DNA from: a virus | DNA length: 64,000 nt | IMG/VR virus record: IMGVR_UViG_3300044731_001604 | Location: 1-64,000 of that record | Strand: one strand, 5' to 3' | Position numbers and translations under genes: made by a program | Notes under the pieces: generated by a model | Told to the model about the DNA's origin: nothing | What the model saw: the letters and a program-made list of their open reading frames with translations, nothing else | Database searches by the model: none | Part shown: positions 34,655 to 40,794 of the stretch, piece after piece | Position numbering within the stretch: the stretch's first letter is position 1 | Layout: every line of letters starts with the position of its first letter

Positions 34655-34689
34655 AATTGCATTAACATCATTAAGTTATGGAAATAATT

Positions 34690-34869
34690 ATGGAATTATA
34701 TAAGCTTTTAGTTGTTAGAAATAGAGAAAAGAAGGTTATTGCCGAAAACTTGAGCAAAGAAGAGGTGTCTGTAGCAAAGACAGATTGGGCAACTATTTAT
34801 AATAACGACGTTTATTTCGATCCAGTTCCAGTGTTATTGGTTGAAGTGCAGCGTGAGGGTGAAGAATGA
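34690..34869 (+). CDS. first gene of the array operon, not of the M-x-K-R family
   Basis: 59 residues from the ATG at 34690 (GGAAA 5 bases upstream); an in-frame ATG at 34678 lacks a ribosome site. The sequence (MELYKLLVVRNREKKVIAEN, then DVYFDPVPVLLVEVQREGEE) is a beta-rich small domain and lacks the basic N-terminal motif of the following genes. It does not resemble anything I can name. It overlaps the first array member as ATGA. Confidence 0.55.
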   Translation: MELYKLLVVRNREKKVIAENLSKEEVSVAKTDWATIYNNDVYFDPVPVLLVEVQREGEE

Positions 34870-35066
34870 GGAAACGCGAGCAGGCAGAAGTACATAACGC
34901 CTTGTTCTATCAAGTAAGGTACATTCTAGATGTAATTCAAGAACCTGAAGAAGTTACAGAATATACTATTATGGATATCTTGTTAGATAATCGACTCAGA
35001 CCTGTTGATGTTGCTGAGTTGCAAAAGCAAGTAAGATATTTTATTGCGAATCGGAATATAAGGTAA
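34866..35066 (+). CDS. array member 1 (M-x-K-R small protein family)
   Basis: 66 residues. N-terminal signature MRKREQAEV, the basic head typical of the array. The body has no clear QL repeat; the end VAELQKQVRYFIANRNIR is a basic amphipathic helix comparable with the tails of other members. Starts inside the upstream stop (ATGA). Function unknown. Confidence 0.65.
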   Translation: MRKREQAEVHNALFYQVRYILDVIQEPEEVTEYTIMDILLDNRLRPVDVAELQKQVRYFIANRNIR

Positions 35067-35070
35067 ATAT

Positions 35071-35268
35071 ATGGTCAAAAGAAGGCAGCTAAGTGATTTT
35101 CTTAAAAAGTATCTCTACAATAAGCTTTATAGCCAGTCTATGATCACAACTGAATACGTTTGGGACAAAGTATGGTACAGCACTAGACCTGATCTCTACC
35201 TATTGCTTCATGTTAATATCGAAATAGAAATTACTAAACACATAAGACAAATTAAGGCCACTAAATGA
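35071..35268 (+). CDS. array member 2
   Basis: 65 residues, MVKRRQLSDF head, then FLKKYLYNKLYSQ with Leu every four residues, a Trp/Tyr-rich middle (YVWDKVWYSTRPDLYLLLHV) and tail ITKHIRQIKATK. One of few members separated from its predecessor (4 bases). No known family. Confidence 0.62.
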   Translation: MVKRRQLSDFLKKYLYNKLYSQSMITTEYVWDKVWYSTRPDLYLLLHVNIEIEITKHIRQIKATK

Positions 35269-35456
35269 GGAAAAGAGACCAGATTGATGATTCTAAATTT
35301 TTTTGGCGATTAGTTGACCGCACCTTATCTTGGCGCATAGACGATGAACTTGGGGCATATCTTAGATGGCAATTTCGCGACAATTTAGATGATAACCTTT
35401 ACTATCACTTGTATAGACACATAAGCGATTTCTTAAGGCAAGAGGAATTAAAATGA
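35265..35456 (+). CDS. array member 3
   Basis: 63 residues, MRKRDQIDDS head. The C-terminal half shows the family tetrad pattern clearly: DDELGAYLRWQFRDNLDDNL and then YYHLYRHISDFLRQ, with Leu or aromatic residues every fourth position. ATGA overlaps at both ends. Confidence 0.65.
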   Translation: MRKRDQIDDSKFFWRLVDRTLSWRIDDELGAYLRWQFRDNLDDNLYYHLYRHISDFLRQEELK

Positions 35457-35632
35457 GAAGAAGAAATTCAATTGATGCATACCATAGACTATTGCTCTCT
35501 CTTGCTAAGAATTCAGGTAAAGTCGTAAAAGATGACTATTTTAACAGACTTATGGATATAGTTCGCGAAGGGGCTAACCAAGAAATGAAAATTAAGCTCT
35601 ATGCCTATTTAAAAGATGTGAGGTCAAAATGA
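35453..35632 (+). CDS. array member 4
   Basis: 59 residues (MRRRNSIDAYHRLLLSLAKN, then YFNRLMDIVREGANQEMKIK and YAYLKDVRSK). The head is MRRR instead of MKKR/MRKR but position 8 keeps Asp after Ile. Reading frame defined by ATGA overlaps at 35453 and 35629. Confidence 0.6.
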   Translation: MRRRNSIDAYHRLLLSLAKNSGKVVKDDYFNRLMDIVREGANQEMKIKLYAYLKDVRSK

Positions 35633-35811
35633 AGAAACATATTCACATGGACGACATGTTTTATATAAAAATGCATACAGCCATAAAGTCTAGATTAGAT
35701 GATAGTTTGTACGATAGATTGTATTTTATATTTTTAGACGACAAGATGAATTGCATTAGGCGTGAATTGAGAAGACATATAGCAAATTCTCTCGTAAGAT
35801 GGCACAGATGA
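35629..35811 (+). CDS. array member 5 (divergent head)
   Basis: 60 residues. The head is MKKHIHMDDM, with His replacing the Arg at position 4, one of the few exceptions. The middle SRLDDSLYDRLYFIFLDDKM and tail RRELRRHIANSLVRWHR keep the family pattern of spaced Leu with Asp/Arg. Confidence 0.6.
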   Translation: MKKHIHMDDMFYIKMHTAIKSRLDDSLYDRLYFIFLDDKMNCIRRELRRHIANSLVRWHR

Positions 35812-35987
35812 GAAAACGAGAATTTATTGAAAAAAATTTTCATGAAAAAATCTATGAAAAATACCACGATCAACTTGATGCAAATTTGCATTTTAAATTA
35901 CACCAAAAAATATACCACGAACTACGTGAAGACATTTATTGGGAATTATATAAACAAGTTAGGAACATAGTAGCTAATTGGAGCTAA
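35808..35987 (+). CDS. array member 6
   Basis: 59 residues, MRKREFIEKNFHEKIYEKYH, then DQLDANLHFKLHQKIYHELR with hydrophobic residues every four positions. I start at 35808 because of the ATGA overlap and the family head; an in-frame ATG at 35799 would add MAQ. Confidence 0.63.
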   Translation: MRKREFIEKNFHEKIYEKYHDQLDANLHFKLHQKIYHELREDIYWELYKQVRNIVANWS

Positions 35988-35988
35988 T

Positions 35989-36174
35989 GTGAAGAAACGT
36001 AAGCAATTAGATAAATTCTTTTTCAGAACACGAATGAGGTTGAATAAAGACATACCATTTCGTTTATATTCTAGTGGCCGCGTAAATCATTATATTGATT
36101 CATCTTTGACAAACAATTCTGTATGTAGCGGTATTATATTGTTAATTAAATCAGAAATCGAGGGCGAAGAATGA
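35989..36174 (+). CDS. array member 7 (GTG start)
   Basis: 61 residues, MKKRKQLDKFFFRTRMRLNK head and a polar middle (YSSGRVNHYIDSSLTNNSVC). GTG at 35989; the ATG two bases earlier is out of frame. The tail IKSEIEGEE is acidic, unlike most members. Confidence 0.58.
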   Translation: MKKRKQLDKFFFRTRMRLNKDIPFRLYSSGRVNHYIDSSLTNNSVCSGIILLIKSEIEGEE

Positions 36175-36383
36175 GGAAGAGGGAGAGGGCCAACCTTCAG
36201 GTTAGAAGGTTAGTAGATTACATACCATGCGATATACTTACGGCTGGGTTAACAAGCAGAATCAGCTTTAAAGCCGCTGATATGTATGATATACTTAAAG
36301 TGGGTATTATTAATAGGCTTATACATTGCATACAAGACTATGATTCAAAAAAGGCATCAAATGAGGCGAAGAGAAATACTTAA
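36171..36383 (+). CDS. array member 8
   Basis: 70 residues, MRKRERANLQVRRLVDYIPC head. It contains DILKVGIINRLIHCIQDYDS and a basic tail (SKKASNEAKRNT). It overlaps the next member by 23 bases, more than the usual four, suggesting a 3' extension after loss of its original stop. Confidence 0.58.
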   Translation: MRKRERANLQVRRLVDYIPCDILTAGLTSRISFKAADMYDILKVGIINRLIHCIQDYDSKKASNEAKRNT

Positions 36384-36570
36384 CCAGCAGTTTTATATTT
36401 GGAACGAAAGCCAATGGATTGATAAGCTTTGGTATCAACTTGGAAGCGAGAGAACTAAGGTATTGATACCATTTATTAAAAACCATATTGGTGTTGAACT
36501 TAAAGAACAGATATATGGACAGCTTAAGTGTAATTTGAGATTACATGTAAGAAATACTGAAGGGATTTAA
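36361..36570 (+). CDS. array member 9
   Basis: 69 residues from ATG at 36361 (MRRREILNQQF); longer in-frame starts upstream lack the family head. The tetrad pattern is visible in HIGVELKEQIYGQLKCNLRL. The middle has WNESQWIDKLWYQLGSERTK. Confidence 0.6.
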   Translation: MRRREILNQQFYIWNESQWIDKLWYQLGSERTKVLIPFIKNHIGVELKEQIYGQLKCNLRLHVRNTEGI

Positions 36571-36571
36571 G

Positions 36572-36751
36572 ATGATAAAAAGAATTCCTATTTCTAGTGA
36601 AAAGATTAGCGATAAGCTTTTTGATATGGTGTATAGTCAACCTTATTATGGAATGCGAAAGCGTATTCGTAATCAACTTAGTGTTAAGCTCAGTAACCAA
36701 TTATATCAGGAATTGATTTTGCCTATTGCCTATCAAAAGAGGGTTAATTAA
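36572..36751 (+). CDS. array member 10
   Basis: 59 residues, MIKRIPISSEKISDKLFDMV, then RIRNQLSVKLSNQLYQELIL with QL every four residues and end AYQKRVN. The head M-V/I-K-R-I-P is shared with the member at 37186. Its last bases form the left copy of a 33-base direct repeat. Confidence 0.6.
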   Translation: MIKRIPISSEKISDKLFDMVYSQPYYGMRKRIRNQLSVKLSNQLYQELILPIAYQKRVN

Positions 36752-36769
36752 TATGAAAAAGCGAAAACA
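36737..36769 (+). repeat. 33-base direct repeat, left copy
   Basis: Identical to 36987-37019. It spans the end of one array gene, the TAA, and the first codons (M-K-K-R-K-Q) of the next. The 250-base period covers exactly one gene, as left by a tandem duplication or recombination at the conserved gene junction. Confidence 0.85.
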
Positions 36770-37001
36770 GTTGGAGAATCAGTTCGGGTATCAGTTGGGG
36801 TATGAGTCGGTGAATCAGTTGGTGAATCAGTTGAGGTATCAGTTGGTGTATCAGTTGGTGTATCAGTTGGTGTATCAGTTGGAGAATCAGTTGGTGAATC
36901 AGTTGGAGAATCAGTTGAGGTATCAGTTGAGGTATCAGTTGAGGGATCAGTTGGTGAATCAGTTGAGAAAAACTGAAACTGTTTACAAGAGGGTTAATTA
37001 A
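36753..37001 (+). CDS. array member 11: (N/Y-Q-L-x)n tetrapeptide-repeat protein
   Basis: 82 residues. Head MKKRKQLE, then 16 tandem four-residue units at residues 9-72, mostly NQLV, NQLR, YQLV, YQLR or NQLE, and the tail KTETVYKRVN. The start is set by the family head; an in-frame ATG at 36726 lies inside the previous gene. Leu recurs every fourth residue and Gln before it, so one helix face would be Leu/Gln. The same but degenerate spacing in other members suggests that they derive from such repeats. The antisense strand is also open here only because of the repeat. Confidence 0.7.
   Translation: MKKRKQLENQFGYQLGYESVNQLVNQLRYQLVYQLVYQLVYQLENQLVNQLENQLRYQLRYQLRDQLVNQLRKTETVYKRVN
36777..36968 (+). 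repeat. 12-base tandem repeat within array member 11
   Basis: Sixteen 12-base units, chiefly TATCAGTTGGTG and AATCAGTTGGTG with G-A changes in the last codon. Changes are concentrated at the first base of the N/Y codon and at the fourth codon, so units have drifted little and the tract is probably young. Confidence 0.88.
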
Positions 37002-37019
37002 TATGAAAAAGCGAAAACA
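36987..37019 (+). repeat. 33-base direct repeat, right copy
   Basis: Identical to 36737-36769, at the junction between array members 11 and 12. Confidence 0.85.
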
Positions 37020-37185
37020 AATTGCAGACATATCATTTAATGTTTTCAGAGAAGCATTTATTACACAGATTTATAAAAAAAGTGACTTAAAGTATAATTG
37101 CATAATTGATGAGCAACTGACCTCTAAATTAGTAAATCAGACTCTTGGATATCAAATACGATACTTGATTATAGGTTTGTTCTAA
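37003..37185 (+). CDS. array member 12
   Basis: 60 residues, MKKRKQIADISFNVFREAFI, then DEQLTSKLVNQTLGYQIRYL and a hydrophobic end (IIGLF). Its first 17 bases are identical to those of member 11 through the direct repeat, yet the rest is unrelated in sequence. Confidence 0.6.
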   Translation: MKKRKQIADISFNVFREAFITQIYKKSDLKYNCIIDEQLTSKLVNQTLGYQIRYLIIGLF

Positions 37186-37365
37186 ATGGTTAAAAGAATC
37201 CCACTCAAAGACGGATTATATGTTAAAATAGACAGTGCTTTTAACTGCCAGTTAGAGTACAAAGTCTATACGCTGCTTCGTGAAAAGCTTTTCGTTGTTC
37301 TTTGGGACGAAATTAGGGATCAACTTGAAAGAAATGTCAGAATATCTTTAAAAAACAGGGCATAA
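37186..37365 (+). CDS. array member 13
   Basis: 59 residues, MVKRIPLKDGLYVKIDSAFN, CQLEYKVYTLLREKLFVVLW, DEIRDQLERNVRISLKNRA. ATG directly follows the preceding TAA. Its head resembles member 10 (K-R-I-P) rather than its neighbour. Confidence 0.6.
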   Translation: MVKRIPLKDGLYVKIDSAFNCQLEYKVYTLLREKLFVVLWDEIRDQLERNVRISLKNRA

Positions 37366-37366
37366 G

Positions 37367-37540
37367 ATGAGGAAAAGAGAGCAGATTGATAACATTTTAT
37401 TTGTTCAATTTACAGATGTGCTTAAAGACTCATTTGGGGACAATGTAAGCATGCCATTTTTTTATAAGATAATGCTGGCATTACAAGGGGAATTAGTTGG
37501 CGAACTTTATAGACAATTAGAATCACAGGTGTTGAGATGA
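37367..37540 (+). CDS. array member 14
   Basis: 57 residues, MRKREQIDNILFVQFTDVLK, then a Phe-rich middle (MPFFYKIMLALQ) and GELVGELYRQLESQVLR. The head MRKREQIDN is identical to the member at 39658. Confidence 0.6.
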   Translation: MRKREQIDNILFVQFTDVLKDSFGDNVSMPFFYKIMLALQGELVGELYRQLESQVLR

Positions 37541-37734
37541 AGAAACGAGAACAACTGATAACTAACTTATATTTTAAATTTTATAAGAAATATAACGATT
37601 TGCCAAATGAGGAAACTTTTGATATAATCAACGGAGAACTTGGCGATAAGTTAAATAGACAGATTTGGTATCCTGTTCGTGGGGAGTTATTCGATCAACT
37701 TTATTGTCATACTATTAAGAAAGAAGCGAAATGA
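37537..37734 (+). CDS. array member 15
   Basis: 65 residues, MKKREQLITNLYFKFYKKYN head, ELGDKLNRQIWYPVRGELFD middle, QLYCHTIKKEAK tail. ATGA overlaps at both ends. Confidence 0.62.
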   Translation: MKKREQLITNLYFKFYKKYNDLPNEETFDIINGELGDKLNRQIWYPVRGELFDQLYCHTIKKEAK

Positions 37735-37940
37735 AAAAACGAGTTCAAATACCTGGGCATCTTGGTGACAAATTGTGGGAACAACTGGCTTACACCATGA
37801 GCGGTCAATTAAGATTCAAGCTTAAAATGGTTTTAGCAAACTCTAGTTTAGTTGATGAATATGACACTGCTGCGGCGCATTGCCACCTTAGAAAAAATGT
37901 TTATTGCCACCTTAGATTTAACAGTGGGATTAGAAAATGA
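37731..37940 (+). CDS. array member 16
   Basis: 69 residues, MKKRVQIPGHLGDKLWEQLA. It contains an internal duplication-like pair CHLRKNVYCHLRF near the C-terminus, with two His-Leu-Arg units and two cysteines; other members mostly lack cysteine. Confidence 0.6.
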   Translation: MKKRVQIPGHLGDKLWEQLAYTMSGQLRFKLKMVLANSSLVDEYDTAAAHCHLRKNVYCHLRFNSGIRK

Positions 37941-38107
37941 GACAACGCGATCAAATATATAGACATTTTTCTTCGCATTTAGATTATGAACTAAAGTGTT
38001 TGTATAGAAATCAATTTGATGAGTGGTTGTTTTATCATATTGGGCGAAACATAGGAAATACTGTCAAGTATGATCTTATTAATTTGCAGGAATTGTTGGG
38101 AAAATGA
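37937..38107 (+). CDS. array member 17
   Basis: 56 residues, the shortest member: MRQRDQIYRHFSSHLDYELK, CLYRNQFDEWLFYHIGRNIG, then LINLQELLGK. Head is MRQR. Frame set by ATGA junctions at 37937 and 38104. Confidence 0.58.
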   Translation: MRQRDQIYRHFSSHLDYELKCLYRNQFDEWLFYHIGRNIGNTVKYDLINLQELLGK

Positions 38108-38295
38108 GAAAGCGCGAAGAAATAAGTGTTATAAACAGCATAGACCAGATTTCTAGAAACAAAATGCTTATTCAAGTAGGTACGCCTGTACGTAATCAGA
38201 TTGTTAGCAGATTGCGCGACAATCTTTTAAATGAACTATTAGACCAACTGTATATGCATACGGCTTATTACCTCAATGAGAGGGTGACAAAATGA
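38104..38295 (+). CDS. array member 18
   Basis: 63 residues, MRKREEISVINSIDQISRNK, then PVRNQIVSRLRDNLLNELLD and QLYMHTAYYLNERVTK. The second half follows the every-fourth Leu/Ile spacing closely. Confidence 0.62.
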   Translation: MRKREEISVINSIDQISRNKMLIQVGTPVRNQIVSRLRDNLLNELLDQLYMHTAYYLNERVTK

Positions 38296-38489
38296 AAAAA
38301 AGGATTGAGATTGATTCCATGGTTTTTGATAAGATTCAGGAGCATCTTTTTAATTTTTATTTCGATAAGAGAATTGATCGGTCGCTATACAAGAAATTCT
38401 TAGATGATCTTGAGGAATCTGACGCAAACAATTCCGTCAATCTTATAATGTCGGCAGTAATTTGGCGCATTGAAAGGGAAACACTATGA
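38292..38489 (+). CDS. array member 19
   Basis: 65 residues, MKKRIEIDSMVFDKIQEHLF. The middle is acidic (YKKFLDDLEESDANNSVNL) and the tail IMSAVIWRIERETL is hydrophobic. It has the weakest QL pattern of the run. Confidence 0.58.
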   Translation: MKKRIEIDSMVFDKIQEHLFNFYFDKRIDRSLYKKFLDDLEESDANNSVNLIMSAVIWRIERETL

Positions 38490-38683
38490 AAAAACGTGAT
38501 CAAATTAACTATCAACTTTATGAGCTATACTTTGAATTTAATAAACTGTATCCAAAGTTATCATCAACAAATGATTATTACGTAATTAATACTGCAACAA
38601 GAACAGCACTTTATGATATGTTTTACGGTGAAATTAGATGGCATCTTAAAGGTTTTGTGAGAGATTTTAAGGGTTTGTCATGA
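38486..38683 (+). CDS. array member 20
   Basis: 65 residues, MKKRDQINYQLYELYFEFNK, aromatic and polar middle (YPKLSSTNDYYVINTATRT), tail YGEIRWHLKGFVRDFKGLS. Confidence 0.6.
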   Translation: MKKRDQINYQLYELYFEFNKLYPKLSSTNDYYVINTATRTALYDMFYGEIRWHLKGFVRDFKGLS

Positions 38684-38874
38684 TAAAGCGTAAGCAGATT
38701 AACGACAAAGTACATAGTAGACTACTCAAAGTGTGCTTTTCTAAATTAAAATTACCCAACAATGTTTACTTCGCAATTCATGACAGGCTTACTGAAAAAC
38801 TATATGAAATTAGTTGGGGGCAGATTAGAAGCAAGGTTTACGACGAAATACATATGATAAGTAAAGTGAATTAA
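38680..38874 (+). CDS. array member 21
   Basis: 64 residues, MIKRKQINDKVHSRLLKVCF, then IHDRLTEKLYEISWGQIRSK and VYDEIHMISKVN. The D-R-L-T-E-K-L-Y-E-I pattern is typical of the family core. Confidence 0.62.
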   Translation: MIKRKQINDKVHSRLLKVCFSKLKLPNNVYFAIHDRLTEKLYEISWGQIRSKVYDEIHMISKVN

Positions 38875-38875
38875 A

Positions 38876-39067
38876 ATGACTAAAAGATATCAATTAACAG
38901 ACAGATTATATACCAGCGTACTAAGAGTATACATGCCGTCCTCTTCTTGGGTATATGACATGCTGCTTGATGAAATTTATAATCCCATTTATTTACAACT
39001 TAGGGATCAACTTAGAGAACACGTTCGCAACAGTATCGAATCGTTAAAGCAAAGTGAACTAAAATGA
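38876..39067 (+). CDS. array member 22
   Basis: 63 residues, MTKRYQLTDRLYTSVLRVYM, then LLDEIYNPIYLQLRDQLREH and VRNSIESLKQSELK. Good tetrad spacing across YLQLRDQLREHV. Confidence 0.62.
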   Translation: MTKRYQLTDRLYTSVLRVYMPSSSWVYDMLLDEIYNPIYLQLRDQLREHVRNSIESLKQSELK

Positions 39068-39261
39068 TTAAAAGAGAGCAGATCGACAGCCAGATAGATA
39101 TTATATTATATGCATACGTTGATGAACAAATTTATTATCAATTGGATAAGCTTTTTGAAAATTTCTTGAGAGAAGAGCTTGATGACCAATTATATACGGA
39201 GCTTGATATAAATCTTCGTCTTGAGCTGTACAGATATCTAAATAATGGGGTATTAAGATGA
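39064..39261 (+). CDS. array member 23
   Basis: 65 residues, MIKREQIDSQIDIILYAYVD, EQIYYQLDKLFENFLREELD, DQLYTELDINLRLELYRYLN. Spacing of Leu/Tyr every four residues runs over about 45 residues, the best example after the repeat protein. The head MIKREQIDS is identical to the member at 39440. Confidence 0.65.
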   Translation: MIKREQIDSQIDIILYAYVDEQIYYQLDKLFENFLREELDDQLYTELDINLRLELYRYLNNGVLR

Positions 39262-39443
39262 AGAAGAGAGAATGTTTAGAGATGAAATTAGGTGATAAAC
39301 TAGCTTTCAAATATTATAATGAGTTACAAGATGGCCAACACCATTTAATATACGCTCATGTAAAAAAAACTCTCGTGAAAGAGGTTCACCAAAATGTTAG
39401 AACTCAGCTAAGTGCCTATCTGAGAGCAGAGGTACCAAAGTGA
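39258..39443 (+). CDS. array member 24
   Basis: 61 residues, MKKRECLEMKLGDKLAFKYY, a His-rich middle (LQDGQHHLIYAHVKKTL), tail VHQNVRTQLSAYLRAEVPK. Confidence 0.6.
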   Translation: MKKRECLEMKLGDKLAFKYYNELQDGQHHLIYAHVKKTLVKEVHQNVRTQLSAYLRAEVPK

Positions 39444-39661
39444 TAAAACGCGAGCAGATTGATAGTCATATATATACTTTTATCTATGATGATTTATACA
39501 ATCAGCTATATGGTCAAATTAGCGTCACGTGCGGTAAATGGACATTTGACTATGTTTACAGTAGTTTAACTTTGCAGTATTATAACTTATCATCAGATGG
39601 CCAGTACAGCTCTTTGGTAAACATCGTTTTAACTGATCTAGAGAAAAAGGTGTTGAAATGA
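39440..39661 (+). CDS. array member 25 (GTG start)
   Basis: 73 residues. GTG at 39440 overlaps the previous stop as GTGA. Head MIKREQIDSHIYTFIYDDLY, then YNQLYGQISVTCGKWTFDYV, followed by a Tyr/Ser-rich stretch and tail LVNIVLTDLEKKVLK. Confidence 0.6.
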   Translation: MIKREQIDSHIYTFIYDDLYNQLYGQISVTCGKWTFDYVYSSLTLQYYNLSSDGQYSSLVNIVLTDLEKKVLK

Positions 39662-39837
39662 GAAAAAGAGAGCAGATTGACAACACATTGGATGACAATA
39701 TAAGAGACATTTTGAATGTCAGCTTGGGCTCTAACTTTAGAAATCAAATGTTTTCACGTATTTATAGAAATGTTAGCGCAAGGGCTGATCTGCTACATTT
39801 TATATATTACTATATAAGTACACAAAAGGTTAAATAA
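39658..39837 (+). CDS. array member 26
   Basis: 59 residues, MRKREQIDNTLDDNIRDILN, VSLGSNFRNQMFSRIYRNVS, then LLHFIYYYISTQKVK. Starts within ATGA at 39658; its TAA shares a base with the next ATG (TAATG). Confidence 0.6.
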   Translation: MRKREQIDNTLDDNIRDILNVSLGSNFRNQMFSRIYRNVSARADLLHFIYYYISTQKVK

Positions 39838-40037
39838 TGAGGAAAAGAGTACAGATAGACAGACAAATTAATGAGAATCTCAGAGACCCTTTTTACGTAA
39901 AGCTTAGTAATCAATTTAATTATTATGCTTACAATGACATTAGGTCTAACCTATACCCAGAACTTTTCTTGATTGTATACGATCAATTATATAATAATAT
40001 ATATTATGTCATGAGAGAATTGGTAGTGTCAAAATGA
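39837..40037 (+). CDS. array member 27
   Basis: 66 residues, MRKRVQIDRQINENLRDPFY, then Tyr/Asn-rich NQFNYYAYNDIRSNLYPELF and YDQLYNNIYYVMRELVVSK. Confidence 0.62.
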   Translation: MRKRVQIDRQINENLRDPFYVKLSNQFNYYAYNDIRSNLYPELFLIVYDQLYNNIYYVMRELVVSK

Positions 40038-40279
40038 AAAAGCGAGATCGGTTACTAGATAACACAATGAGTCGGTTAATAGATCTTTTAGAAGACAGGC
40101 TTGAGAATAAGATAGTGGATTATTTGGGTTGTCAGTTAGATGATAAGTTATATTATGAGTTTAGAAGTGAGTTAAGAATTAAGTTTTATGATCGGTTAGT
40201 AGATCAAATGAATAATCAACTAAGACATCATTTAAGGACGCAAGTATATGGAGTCGAGAGAAAACATAGAAATATTTGA
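40034..40279 (+). CDS. array member 28 (81 aa)
   Basis: 81 residues, MKKRDRLLDNTMSRLIDLLE, then DDKLYYEFRSELRIKFYDRL and VDQMNNQLRHHLRTQVYGVE. Strong tetrad spacing in LVDQMNNQLRHHLRTQV. It overlaps the next member by 32 bases; as for member 8, this looks like a read-through extension past the usual length. Confidence 0.63.
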   Translation: MKKRDRLLDNTMSRLIDLLEDRLENKIVDYLGCQLDDKLYYEFRSELRIKFYDRLVDQMNNQLRHHLRTQVYGVERKHRNI

Positions 40280-40427
40280 TTATACTCGTATAATAATGAG
40301 ATCGTCATATTTTTCTTCTAACAAAATTATATTTGAAACAGATCAAAAGCTCATGTGTATGCTAATTCCATTTTTTCTAGAAATGAGGCAGCAAATCAGG
40401 GAGCATATTACGGGCAATTGCAAATGA
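40248..40427 (+). CDS. array member 29 (divergent, hidden by overlap)
   Basis: 59 residues, MESRENIEIFDYTRIIMRSS, then FETDQKLMCMLIPFFLEMRQ and QIREHITGNCK. The head M-E-S-R-E-N-I is a degenerate form of M-K-K-R-x-Q-I. The case rests on the exact 59-residue length shared with several members, the ATGA junction with the next gene at 40424, and otherwise empty space between 40280 and 40423. Confidence 0.55.
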   Translation: MESRENIEIFDYTRIIMRSSYFSSNKIIFETDQKLMCMLIPFFLEMRQQIREHITGNCK

Positions 40428-40603
40428 AGAAACGTAAACAGATTTTCTTGAAGGAATATAACCGCGTATTTACTAAAATGGGTATGCCACTTCCGTCTTC
40501 AGTTGAAGAGGCGGTAGAAACTCAGTTAAAAGATAAGCTTAGGGATGAATTGTTACACCAACTTAGGCTTCACGTTAAAACCCATTTAATGGAAATGAAA
40601 TGA
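40424..40603 (+). CDS. array member 30
   Basis: 59 residues, MKKRKQIFLKEYNRVFTKMG, then AVETQLKDKLRDELLHQLRL and HVKTHLMEMK. I start at 40424 (family head, ATGA junction); an in-frame ATG at 40355 would lie inside member 29. Confidence 0.63.
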   Translation: MKKRKQIFLKEYNRVFTKMGMPLPSSVEEAVETQLKDKLRDELLHQLRLHVKTHLMEMK

Positions 40604-40794
40604 TTAAAAGAAAAATGATACAATACAATTTTAAGACTTTGTTCCACGATTGCCTGTATTCTCAACTTGAGCCAATATTGTATCATAGGCTAAGAGACAG
40701 CTTAAACCATAAGCTTCAGCACTATACGCATAACCCACTTAAGATAGAGCTTTACTATCACATGAATGAAAAGAAAAGCTCCAATTCTAATTAA
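40600..40794 (+). CDS. array member 31 (last)
   Basis: 64 residues, MIKRKMIQYNFKTLFHDCLY, then SQLEPILYHRLRDSLNHKLQ and a Lys/Ser/Asn end. Its TAA overlaps the convergent 1583-aa gene's TAA (both within TTAA at 40791-40794), so no terminator separates the two strands. Confidence 0.63.
   Translation: MIKRKMIQYNFKTLFHDCLYSQLEPILYHRLRDSLNHKLQHYTHNPLKIELYYHMNEKKSSNSN

Follow-up and report, generated by a model that had tools for sequence, protein, structure and literature searches.

A tandem array of 31 small phage genes encodes an eroded four-residue repeat of the kind found within or beside DUF6745 proteins

The internal proteins (IP) of phage T4 share a common capsid-targeting head attached to divergent bodies, and some of them defeat host defences. 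Pentapeptide-repeat proteins are built on a short-period repeat with one hydrophobic residue in each unit. A third system, gp54 of mycobacteriophage Tweety, contains 48 copies of the tetrapeptide AAxx that derive from a 12-bp DNA repeat, with substitutions described as "consistent with selection for variation" (PMC2884959). In defence-escape mutants of Tweety, gp54 repeats are gained or lost, and the defence of either the Phrann or the MichelleMyBell prophage is specifically overcome (PMC9262239, PMC8549241). Here, we describe an array of 31 small open reading frames (ORFs) in the first 64,000 nucleotides (nt), hereafter the window, of the 157,572-nt IMG/VR contig IMGVR_UViG_3300044731_001604, which comes from an uncultured phage. 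A first-pass annotation made from the sequence alone had claimed that no family with this architecture was described. Literature searches agree, as they returned no account of such an array and only the Tweety papers on related repeats, gp54 being the sole characterised phage protein that we found with repeats of this type.

The array consists of 31 successive plus-strand ORFs of 56-82 amino acids (aa) each, located between 34866 and 40794, as originally reported. The estimate of about 20 four-base overlaps was likewise close, since 19 of the 30 junctions are 4-nt ATGA or GTGA overlaps; the remainder are mostly +1 or 0. A Shine-Dalgarno-like motif lies upstream of 26 of the 31 ORFs. The M-x-K-R head that had drawn attention to the locus is exact in 26 members, the exceptions being MRRR (twice), MKKH, MRQR and MESR, and is followed directly by x-Q-[IL] in 17. 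When ORFs of 40-130 aa were listed mechanically, M-x-K-R starts were found in 23 of 32 on the plus strand of the array, 0 of 10 on its minus strand and 11 of 546 in the rest of the contig, and most of these 11 are further family members. Altogether, 17 additional members are located elsewhere on the contig, at 65128-65495, 69839-70421 (minus strand), 73391-76208 (a second array), 78169-78417 and 105120-105311 (minus strand), bringing the family to 48.

Leu, Ile or Tyr at every fourth residue had also been noticed, and the pattern is quantitatively real. In 47 members (A11, the eleventh ORF of the array, was excluded), the autocorrelation of Leu, Ile and Val (LIV) gives z = 18, 15 and 13 at lags 4, 8 and 12, with depletion at lags 1-3 and 5-7 and no positive signal at lag 11. 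Counting from the start codon in all 48 unaligned members, residues 7, 11, 15 and onward to 59 are hydrophobic in a proportion that falls from 92% to 45%, compared with ~15-30% at most other positions. The residue preceding the hydrophobic position is often Gln or Lys, and the next two are often Tyr or Arg, then Asp, Ser or Asn. In the member bodies, an x-Q-[LI]-x tetrapeptide is repeated in degenerate form and stays in phase with the M-x-K-R head to residue 59. Because the bodies continue the four-residue phase of the head, the head itself, M-x-K-R-x-Q-[IL], represents a cap plus the first repeat unit. Head and body pattern are common beyond chance, and the 31 ORFs are one paralogous family; the earlier proposal of a single multiplied and diverged family is therefore supported by both features as well as by the selection on protein described below. 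The accompanying claim that bodies diverged far faster than heads holds in part: the bodies retain one four-residue pattern, the first unit of which is part of the head.

A11 (36753..37001, MKKRKQLENQFGYQL) is the sole member with intact QLxx repeats and alone retains the 12-nt DNA repeat (36768..36965, plus strand; 16.5 copies by Tandem Repeats Finder, TRF), which also shows a 48-nt higher-order unit; the other 47 members are degenerate. An A11-like head joined to an intact QL body occurs as a single gene in other phages, with the head and body reading MKKRKQLKYQLRSQL... at L285 and M[IT]KRKQIKGQLYGQL... at L039 and L286 (L numbers designate individual loci). Given that the same head accompanies an intact QL body in these phages, the window family is most readily interpreted as a gene of this type that has been expanded and has eroded. 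The first-pass annotation had missed the intact repeat of A11, the 17 further members, a leader ORF at 34678-34869, the similar arrays in other phages and the tie to the protein family DUF6745. The 12-nt QL repeats frequently give open frames on either strand, as seen in the window (36744-37031, minus strand) and at L050, L084 and L086, because their CAATTG/CAGCTG core is palindromic.

Codon usage separates conservation of the protein from conservation of the DNA. Arg4 of the head is encoded by AGA or AGG in 23 members and by CGN in 23, and this mixture indicates that the amino acid is conserved and not the DNA; a role for the head as a DNA or translation signal was rejected for the same reason. 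Within codons of the hydrophobic phase, T occupies position 2 in 62% (0.27 bits above background), whereas position 3 equals background (0.002 bits) and position 1 almost does so (0.057 bits). Neutral decay would lose all three positions alike, and the retention of position 2 with erasure of position 3 therefore demonstrates selection at the protein level. This speaks strongly against the array ORFs being unselected.

A scan of IMG/VR for DNA encoding (QLxx)6 returned, besides microsatellite noise, two kinds of protein: small QL ORFs and large proteins bearing the repeat as an insert. The small ORFs are often arranged in tandem, each array with its own common head, including eight ORFs that mostly begin M[NK]FxxP[IL] at L036, approximately eleven that are mostly of the form MNRSQL...QLERDSE at L113, and ORFs headed M[KN][QE]IN at L121 and L137. 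In the large proteins, the QL repeat is inserted between two conserved halves, the C-terminal of which is Pfam DUF6745 (PF20530). PF20530 was detected on 6 of the 8 contigs that carry free QL ORFs and on none of the 19 controls (Fisher 9e-5), and at L034 the QL ORF and the DUF6745 gene overlap by 4 nt.

Because these loci had been picked by their QL repeats, a second set was picked by the DUF6745 motif alone. Where inserts are present in this set, all are tetrapeptide repeats (QL, QV, SV, SL, NI, KV, NL or AV). Among the matches listed, small period-4 ORFs (z > 4, within 1.5 kb of the DUF6745 gene) accompany 10 of 20 insert-less loci versus 0 of 28 insert-bearing loci (Fisher 3e-5), one further insert-less match, L176, having been put aside as spurious. 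Each of these arrays has a head of its own, such as MKSV[SK]N (L190), MKS[VI]xKQI (L178) and MLG[KE]S (L220), and the same holds for those at L214 and L186. On a quick tree of the DUF6745 C-terminal part, insert excluded, the fused state must have changed at least 12 times and the array state at least 11 times, and well-supported branches alone force 7 and 4, respectively; 10 of the 66 rows show neither state by the criteria used, and two loci labelled "array" have arrays more than 1.5 kb from DUF6745. The association is complementary and recurrent: the repeat sits either within DUF6745 or on separate neighbouring proteins, and has switched between these arrangements many times. Such repeated switching points strongly, if indirectly, to a joint function of DUF6745 and the repeat chains.

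The phage described here falls into this scheme. It encodes an insert-less DUF6745 protein (contig 72741-73367; 32.8 bits, cut-off 27) whose gene ends 24 nt upstream of the second array, the family ORFs of which begin at 73391 on the same strand, and its main array is the largest case seen of the phage DUF6745/tetrapeptide-repeat arrangement. DUF6745 is also sporadic in bacterial chromosomes, being present in 7 of 98 cyanobacterial genomes with up to 4 copies each, and the Mycobacterium abscessus prophage protein prophiGD102-1 gp38 is a DUF6745 protein with a QL insert. The inserts come in at least eight flavours at one site among the matches listed (L156-L264); one residue of every unit varies greatly (R/G/W/Y/D/H/N), and a residue code is conceivable. 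A different phage repeat family, approximately (GKLHRxDGPAxxYADGxKxWYxN)n, has an LH..GPA..Y.DG motif in common with DUF6745 and was encountered at L164, L169, L196, L207, L212, L222, L246, L251 and L261.

Several known systems resemble the window family, among them the insert-bearing DUF6745 proteins. In prophiGD102-1 gp38, for example, the repeat likewise combines QL with two residues that are mostly polar, and it occupies a single fixed site, and split DUF6745 systems have the same pairing of neighbouring genes; the window differs in that its repeat is carried on 48 separate small proteins and is mostly eroded to the hydrophobic pattern. Tweety gp54, too, is the product of a phage counter-defence gene in which a 12-nt unit gives rise to four-residue repeats, with residues 3 and 4 and the copy number variable. 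However, it is one large protein whose AAxx repeats are flanked by N and C domains of its own (phrog_3416), it is non-homologous outside the repeat, and it is found without DUF6745, without an array of small proteins and without the M-x-K-R head. The T4 internal proteins, compared by description only, resemble the family in their short common N-terminus and variable body, whereas the window bodies are a periodic repeat and the copy number is far higher. Pentapeptide-repeat proteins share a short period with a hydrophobic residue in each unit, but the window period is 4 and not 5, with signal at lags 4, 8 and 12 only, and 10 array members gave no Pfam match to that family. We regard the split-repeat array system as new in architecture, although tetrapeptide repeats in a phage counter-defence gene were already known; if Tweety gp54 is counted as the same kind, the array would be a variation on it.

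We favour the explanation, to which we give about an even chance, that the window proteins are detached and diversified repeat modules of a DUF6745 system, forming an interaction repertoire used most likely in conflict with host or prophage defences. Each ORF would be translated separately into a chain made of the M-x-K-R cap and (x-Q-[LI]-x)n, equivalent to the repeat insert within the DUF6745 proteins of other phages. The chains would then work with the insert-less DUF6745 (contig 72741-73367) as interchangeable interaction modules with a presumably helical binding surface, a partnership that the genomic arrangements make somewhat probable. New variants would arise by gene duplication and slippage of the 12-nt repeat and would subsequently diverge by point mutation, with the four-residue hydrophobic pattern under selection. 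Since the number of repeats in Tweety gp54 tunes which defence is overcome, each chain might similarly set the target of the complex among variable host or prophage defences; by this analogy, use of the repertoire in phage-host conflict is plausible, if rather less so than the partnership. A more specific version, in which a DUF6745 core combines with one of many repeat chains, variable residues form the target surface and specificities are bred by slippage and duplication, would make the 48 members a repertoire that is diverse everywhere except in the head and the four-residue frame; this combinatorial adaptor we regard as doubtful.

Three things that lack an explanation come together in the array: runs of tiny orphan genes in phages, coding repeats of 12 nt, and DUF6745, a domain of unknown function in both phages and bacteria. 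The array is also a clear case of microproteins born from a repeat, in which nearly all identity has been lost and the selected periodicity kept. If the partnership is true, a virus would have built a repertoire that looks adaptive, its specificity being bred in the repeats, and the mechanism behind the tunable counter-defence of Tweety gp54 would become testable in other phages.

Several points weigh against this explanation. The main array lies 32 kb from the DUF6745 gene, among tail-fibre genes, so that family membership is its only tie to DUF6745. The DUF6745 protein of the contig is short (208 aa), gives a weak partial match and sits on a very long tree branch. The proposal that Tweety gp54 is itself a DUF6745 protein was tested and rejected, and what it shares with the window family is just the repeat period and a W/G/S-rich style. 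Two other IMG/VR contigs, siblings of this one, are 100% identical in DNA over the array and therefore provide no evolutionary information and no ratio of nonsynonymous to synonymous change (dN/dS). The binding, expression and target that the explanation calls for are predicted. Structural modelling is also ambiguous. AlphaFold2 predicts the family ORF A23 as a single helix (residues 2-64, mean predicted local distance difference test score, pLDDT, 93.6). For L120, it gives well-predicted DUF6745 halves and, between them, a helical hairpin of lower confidence formed by the QL insert (62-108, 114-160). A Foldseek search with both models found no meaningful match to solved folds. On an alpha helix, an exact period of 4 shifts round by 40 degrees with each unit, and repeat variants rich in Gly, Asp, Ser, Asn and Val are poor helix formers; both facts cast doubt on the single-helix prediction for the repeat chains. 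With a strict period of 4, the hydrophobic residues would not stay on one face of an ordinary alpha helix, and the predicted helix may be misleading.

Of the competing explanations, we rank highest, while still thinking it unlikely, a panel of stand-alone inhibitors, as the first-pass annotation had suggested, in which the proteins each have their own target to bind, in the host or in a defence system, and DUF6745 is merely a frequent neighbour. The main array and several members (at 65, 70 and 105 kb) are indeed not beside DUF6745, the head is kept despite extreme diversity, and the contigs L039, L285 and L286, which are fragments, carry MxKR-QL genes with no DUF6745 detected. A panel directed at defences would draw indirect support by analogy from Tweety gp54 as a tunable counter-defence protein (PMC9262239, PMC8549241). 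It is difficult, however, to account for the repeated switching between insert and neighbouring array around DUF6745 unless the two are functionally linked. In another reading, DUF6745 would be the effector, and the repeat chains the regulators or immunity factors, of a toxin-antitoxin-like or superinfection-exclusion module and not of a counter-defence device; this ranks next and is unlikely too. Tandem diverged immunity-like copies are typical of toxin/immunity conflicts, and the sporadic occurrence of DUF6745 in bacterial chromosomes (7 of the 98 cyanobacterial genomes searched) and its presence in a Mycobacterium prophage would fit, but no toxin fold or known defence family was found when DUF6745 was searched for them. 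Its PADLOC matches are weak and mutually unrelated, and that of L120 (residues 85-166) falls on the repeat and not on the domain.

It is quite improbable that the proteins are structural or assembly components, with long helices acting as scaffold, internal head or tail parts. The array does sit inside the tail/tail-fibre gene region and AlphaFold2 returns a single long helix, but the size and presence of arrays vary among phages, the genes are scattered in the window phage, and the gene associated with the arrays is DUF6745, not one for a virion component; in PHROGs and Pfam, 10 array members gave no match to virion families. Very improbable, finally, is a selfish or neutral by-product, in which easily expanding 12-nt repeats spawn functionless short ORFs. 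As this idea would have it, intact members consist almost wholly of 12-nt repeats, and repeats of this kind have several open frames and are open on either strand. Nevertheless, synonymous sites in the window family no longer show the DNA repeat, whereas the hydrophobic phase, the head, the start/stop overlaps and the open frames persist, and the codon-position result largely refutes the by-product idea for the window array.

Array members searched against PHROGs, Pfam and NCBIfam produced just weak, mutually inconsistent matches, and an Integrase_H2C2 match on A06, below cut-off, was treated as spurious. Ten array members scanned at the Pfam gathering score had no match to PF20530, and phrog_3416, which does match Tweety gp54, matched neither 10 array members nor the DUF6745 protein of the contig. 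At the DNA level, no relatives of the array were found in the phage collection. A match at L027 was discarded as unrelated. The tandem-head pattern matched only the sibling contigs in IMG/VR, and in GTDB genomes it gave six chance matches, none with such ORFs. Alignment-based scans of the collection were unproductive, as no column block is sufficiently conserved, and sequence matches in the PDB were due to chance, mostly to low-complexity repeats. Judged by DNA polymerase III alpha (DnaE, 33% identity), Myxococcus phage Mx1 is the closest named phage, and no ORFs of the array type were seen in it. Promoter and terminator scans were at chance level only.

All features of the operon are on the plus strand. 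It opens with the leader ORF (34678..34869), a 63-aa non-member that lacks the M-x-K-R head and has no Pfam or PHROG match. The family ORFs that follow, up to the intact member A11, are A01 (MRKREQAEV, 34866..35066), A02 (MVKRRQLSD, 35071..35268), A03 (MRKRDQIDD, 35265..35456, period-4 z 6.2), A04 (MRRRNSIDA, 35453..35632), A05 (MKKHIHMDD, 35629..35811, z 4.4), A06 (MRKREFIEK, 35808..35987, z 9.0), A07 (GTG start, KKRKQLD, 35989..36174), A08 (MRKRERANL, 36171..36383), A09 (MRRREILNQ, 36361..36570) and A10 (MIKRIPISS, 36572..36751). Downstream of A11 lie A12 (MKKRKQIAD, 37003..37185), A13 (MVKRIPLKD, 37186..37365), A14 (MRKREQIDN, 37367..37540), A15 (MKKREQLIT, 37537..37734), A16 (MKKRVQIPG, 37731..37940), A17 (MRQRDQIYR, 37937..38107), A18 (MRKREEISV, 38104..38295), A19 (MKKRIEIDS, 38292..38489), A20 (MKKRDQINY, 38486..38683) and A21 (MIKRKQIND, 38680..38874). 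The last ten are A22 (MTKRYQLTD, 38876..39067), A23 (MIKREQIDS, 39064..39261), A24 (MKKRECLEM, 39258..39443), A25 (GTG start, IKREQIDS, 39440..39661), A26 (MRKREQIDN, 39658..39837), A27 (MRKRVQIDR, 39837..40037), A28 (MKKRDRLLD, 40034..40279), A29 (MESRENIEI, 40248..40427), which is the weakest member and overlaps A28 by 32 nt, A30 (MKKRKQIFL, 40424..40603) and A31 (MIKRKMIQY, 40600..40794).

Elsewhere on the contig, a MoxR-type ATPase gene and a VWA/DUF2201 gene are followed on the same minus strand by three family members (69839-72641), with spacing compatible with one operon. A gene at 67588-69735 (minus strand; L001:4589-6736) contains a 45-nt minisatellite encoding the 15-aa unit VDVGNFPATQTVNGT, and one additional unit of this minisatellite in sibling 3300035666_000004 is the sole difference within the stretches compared.

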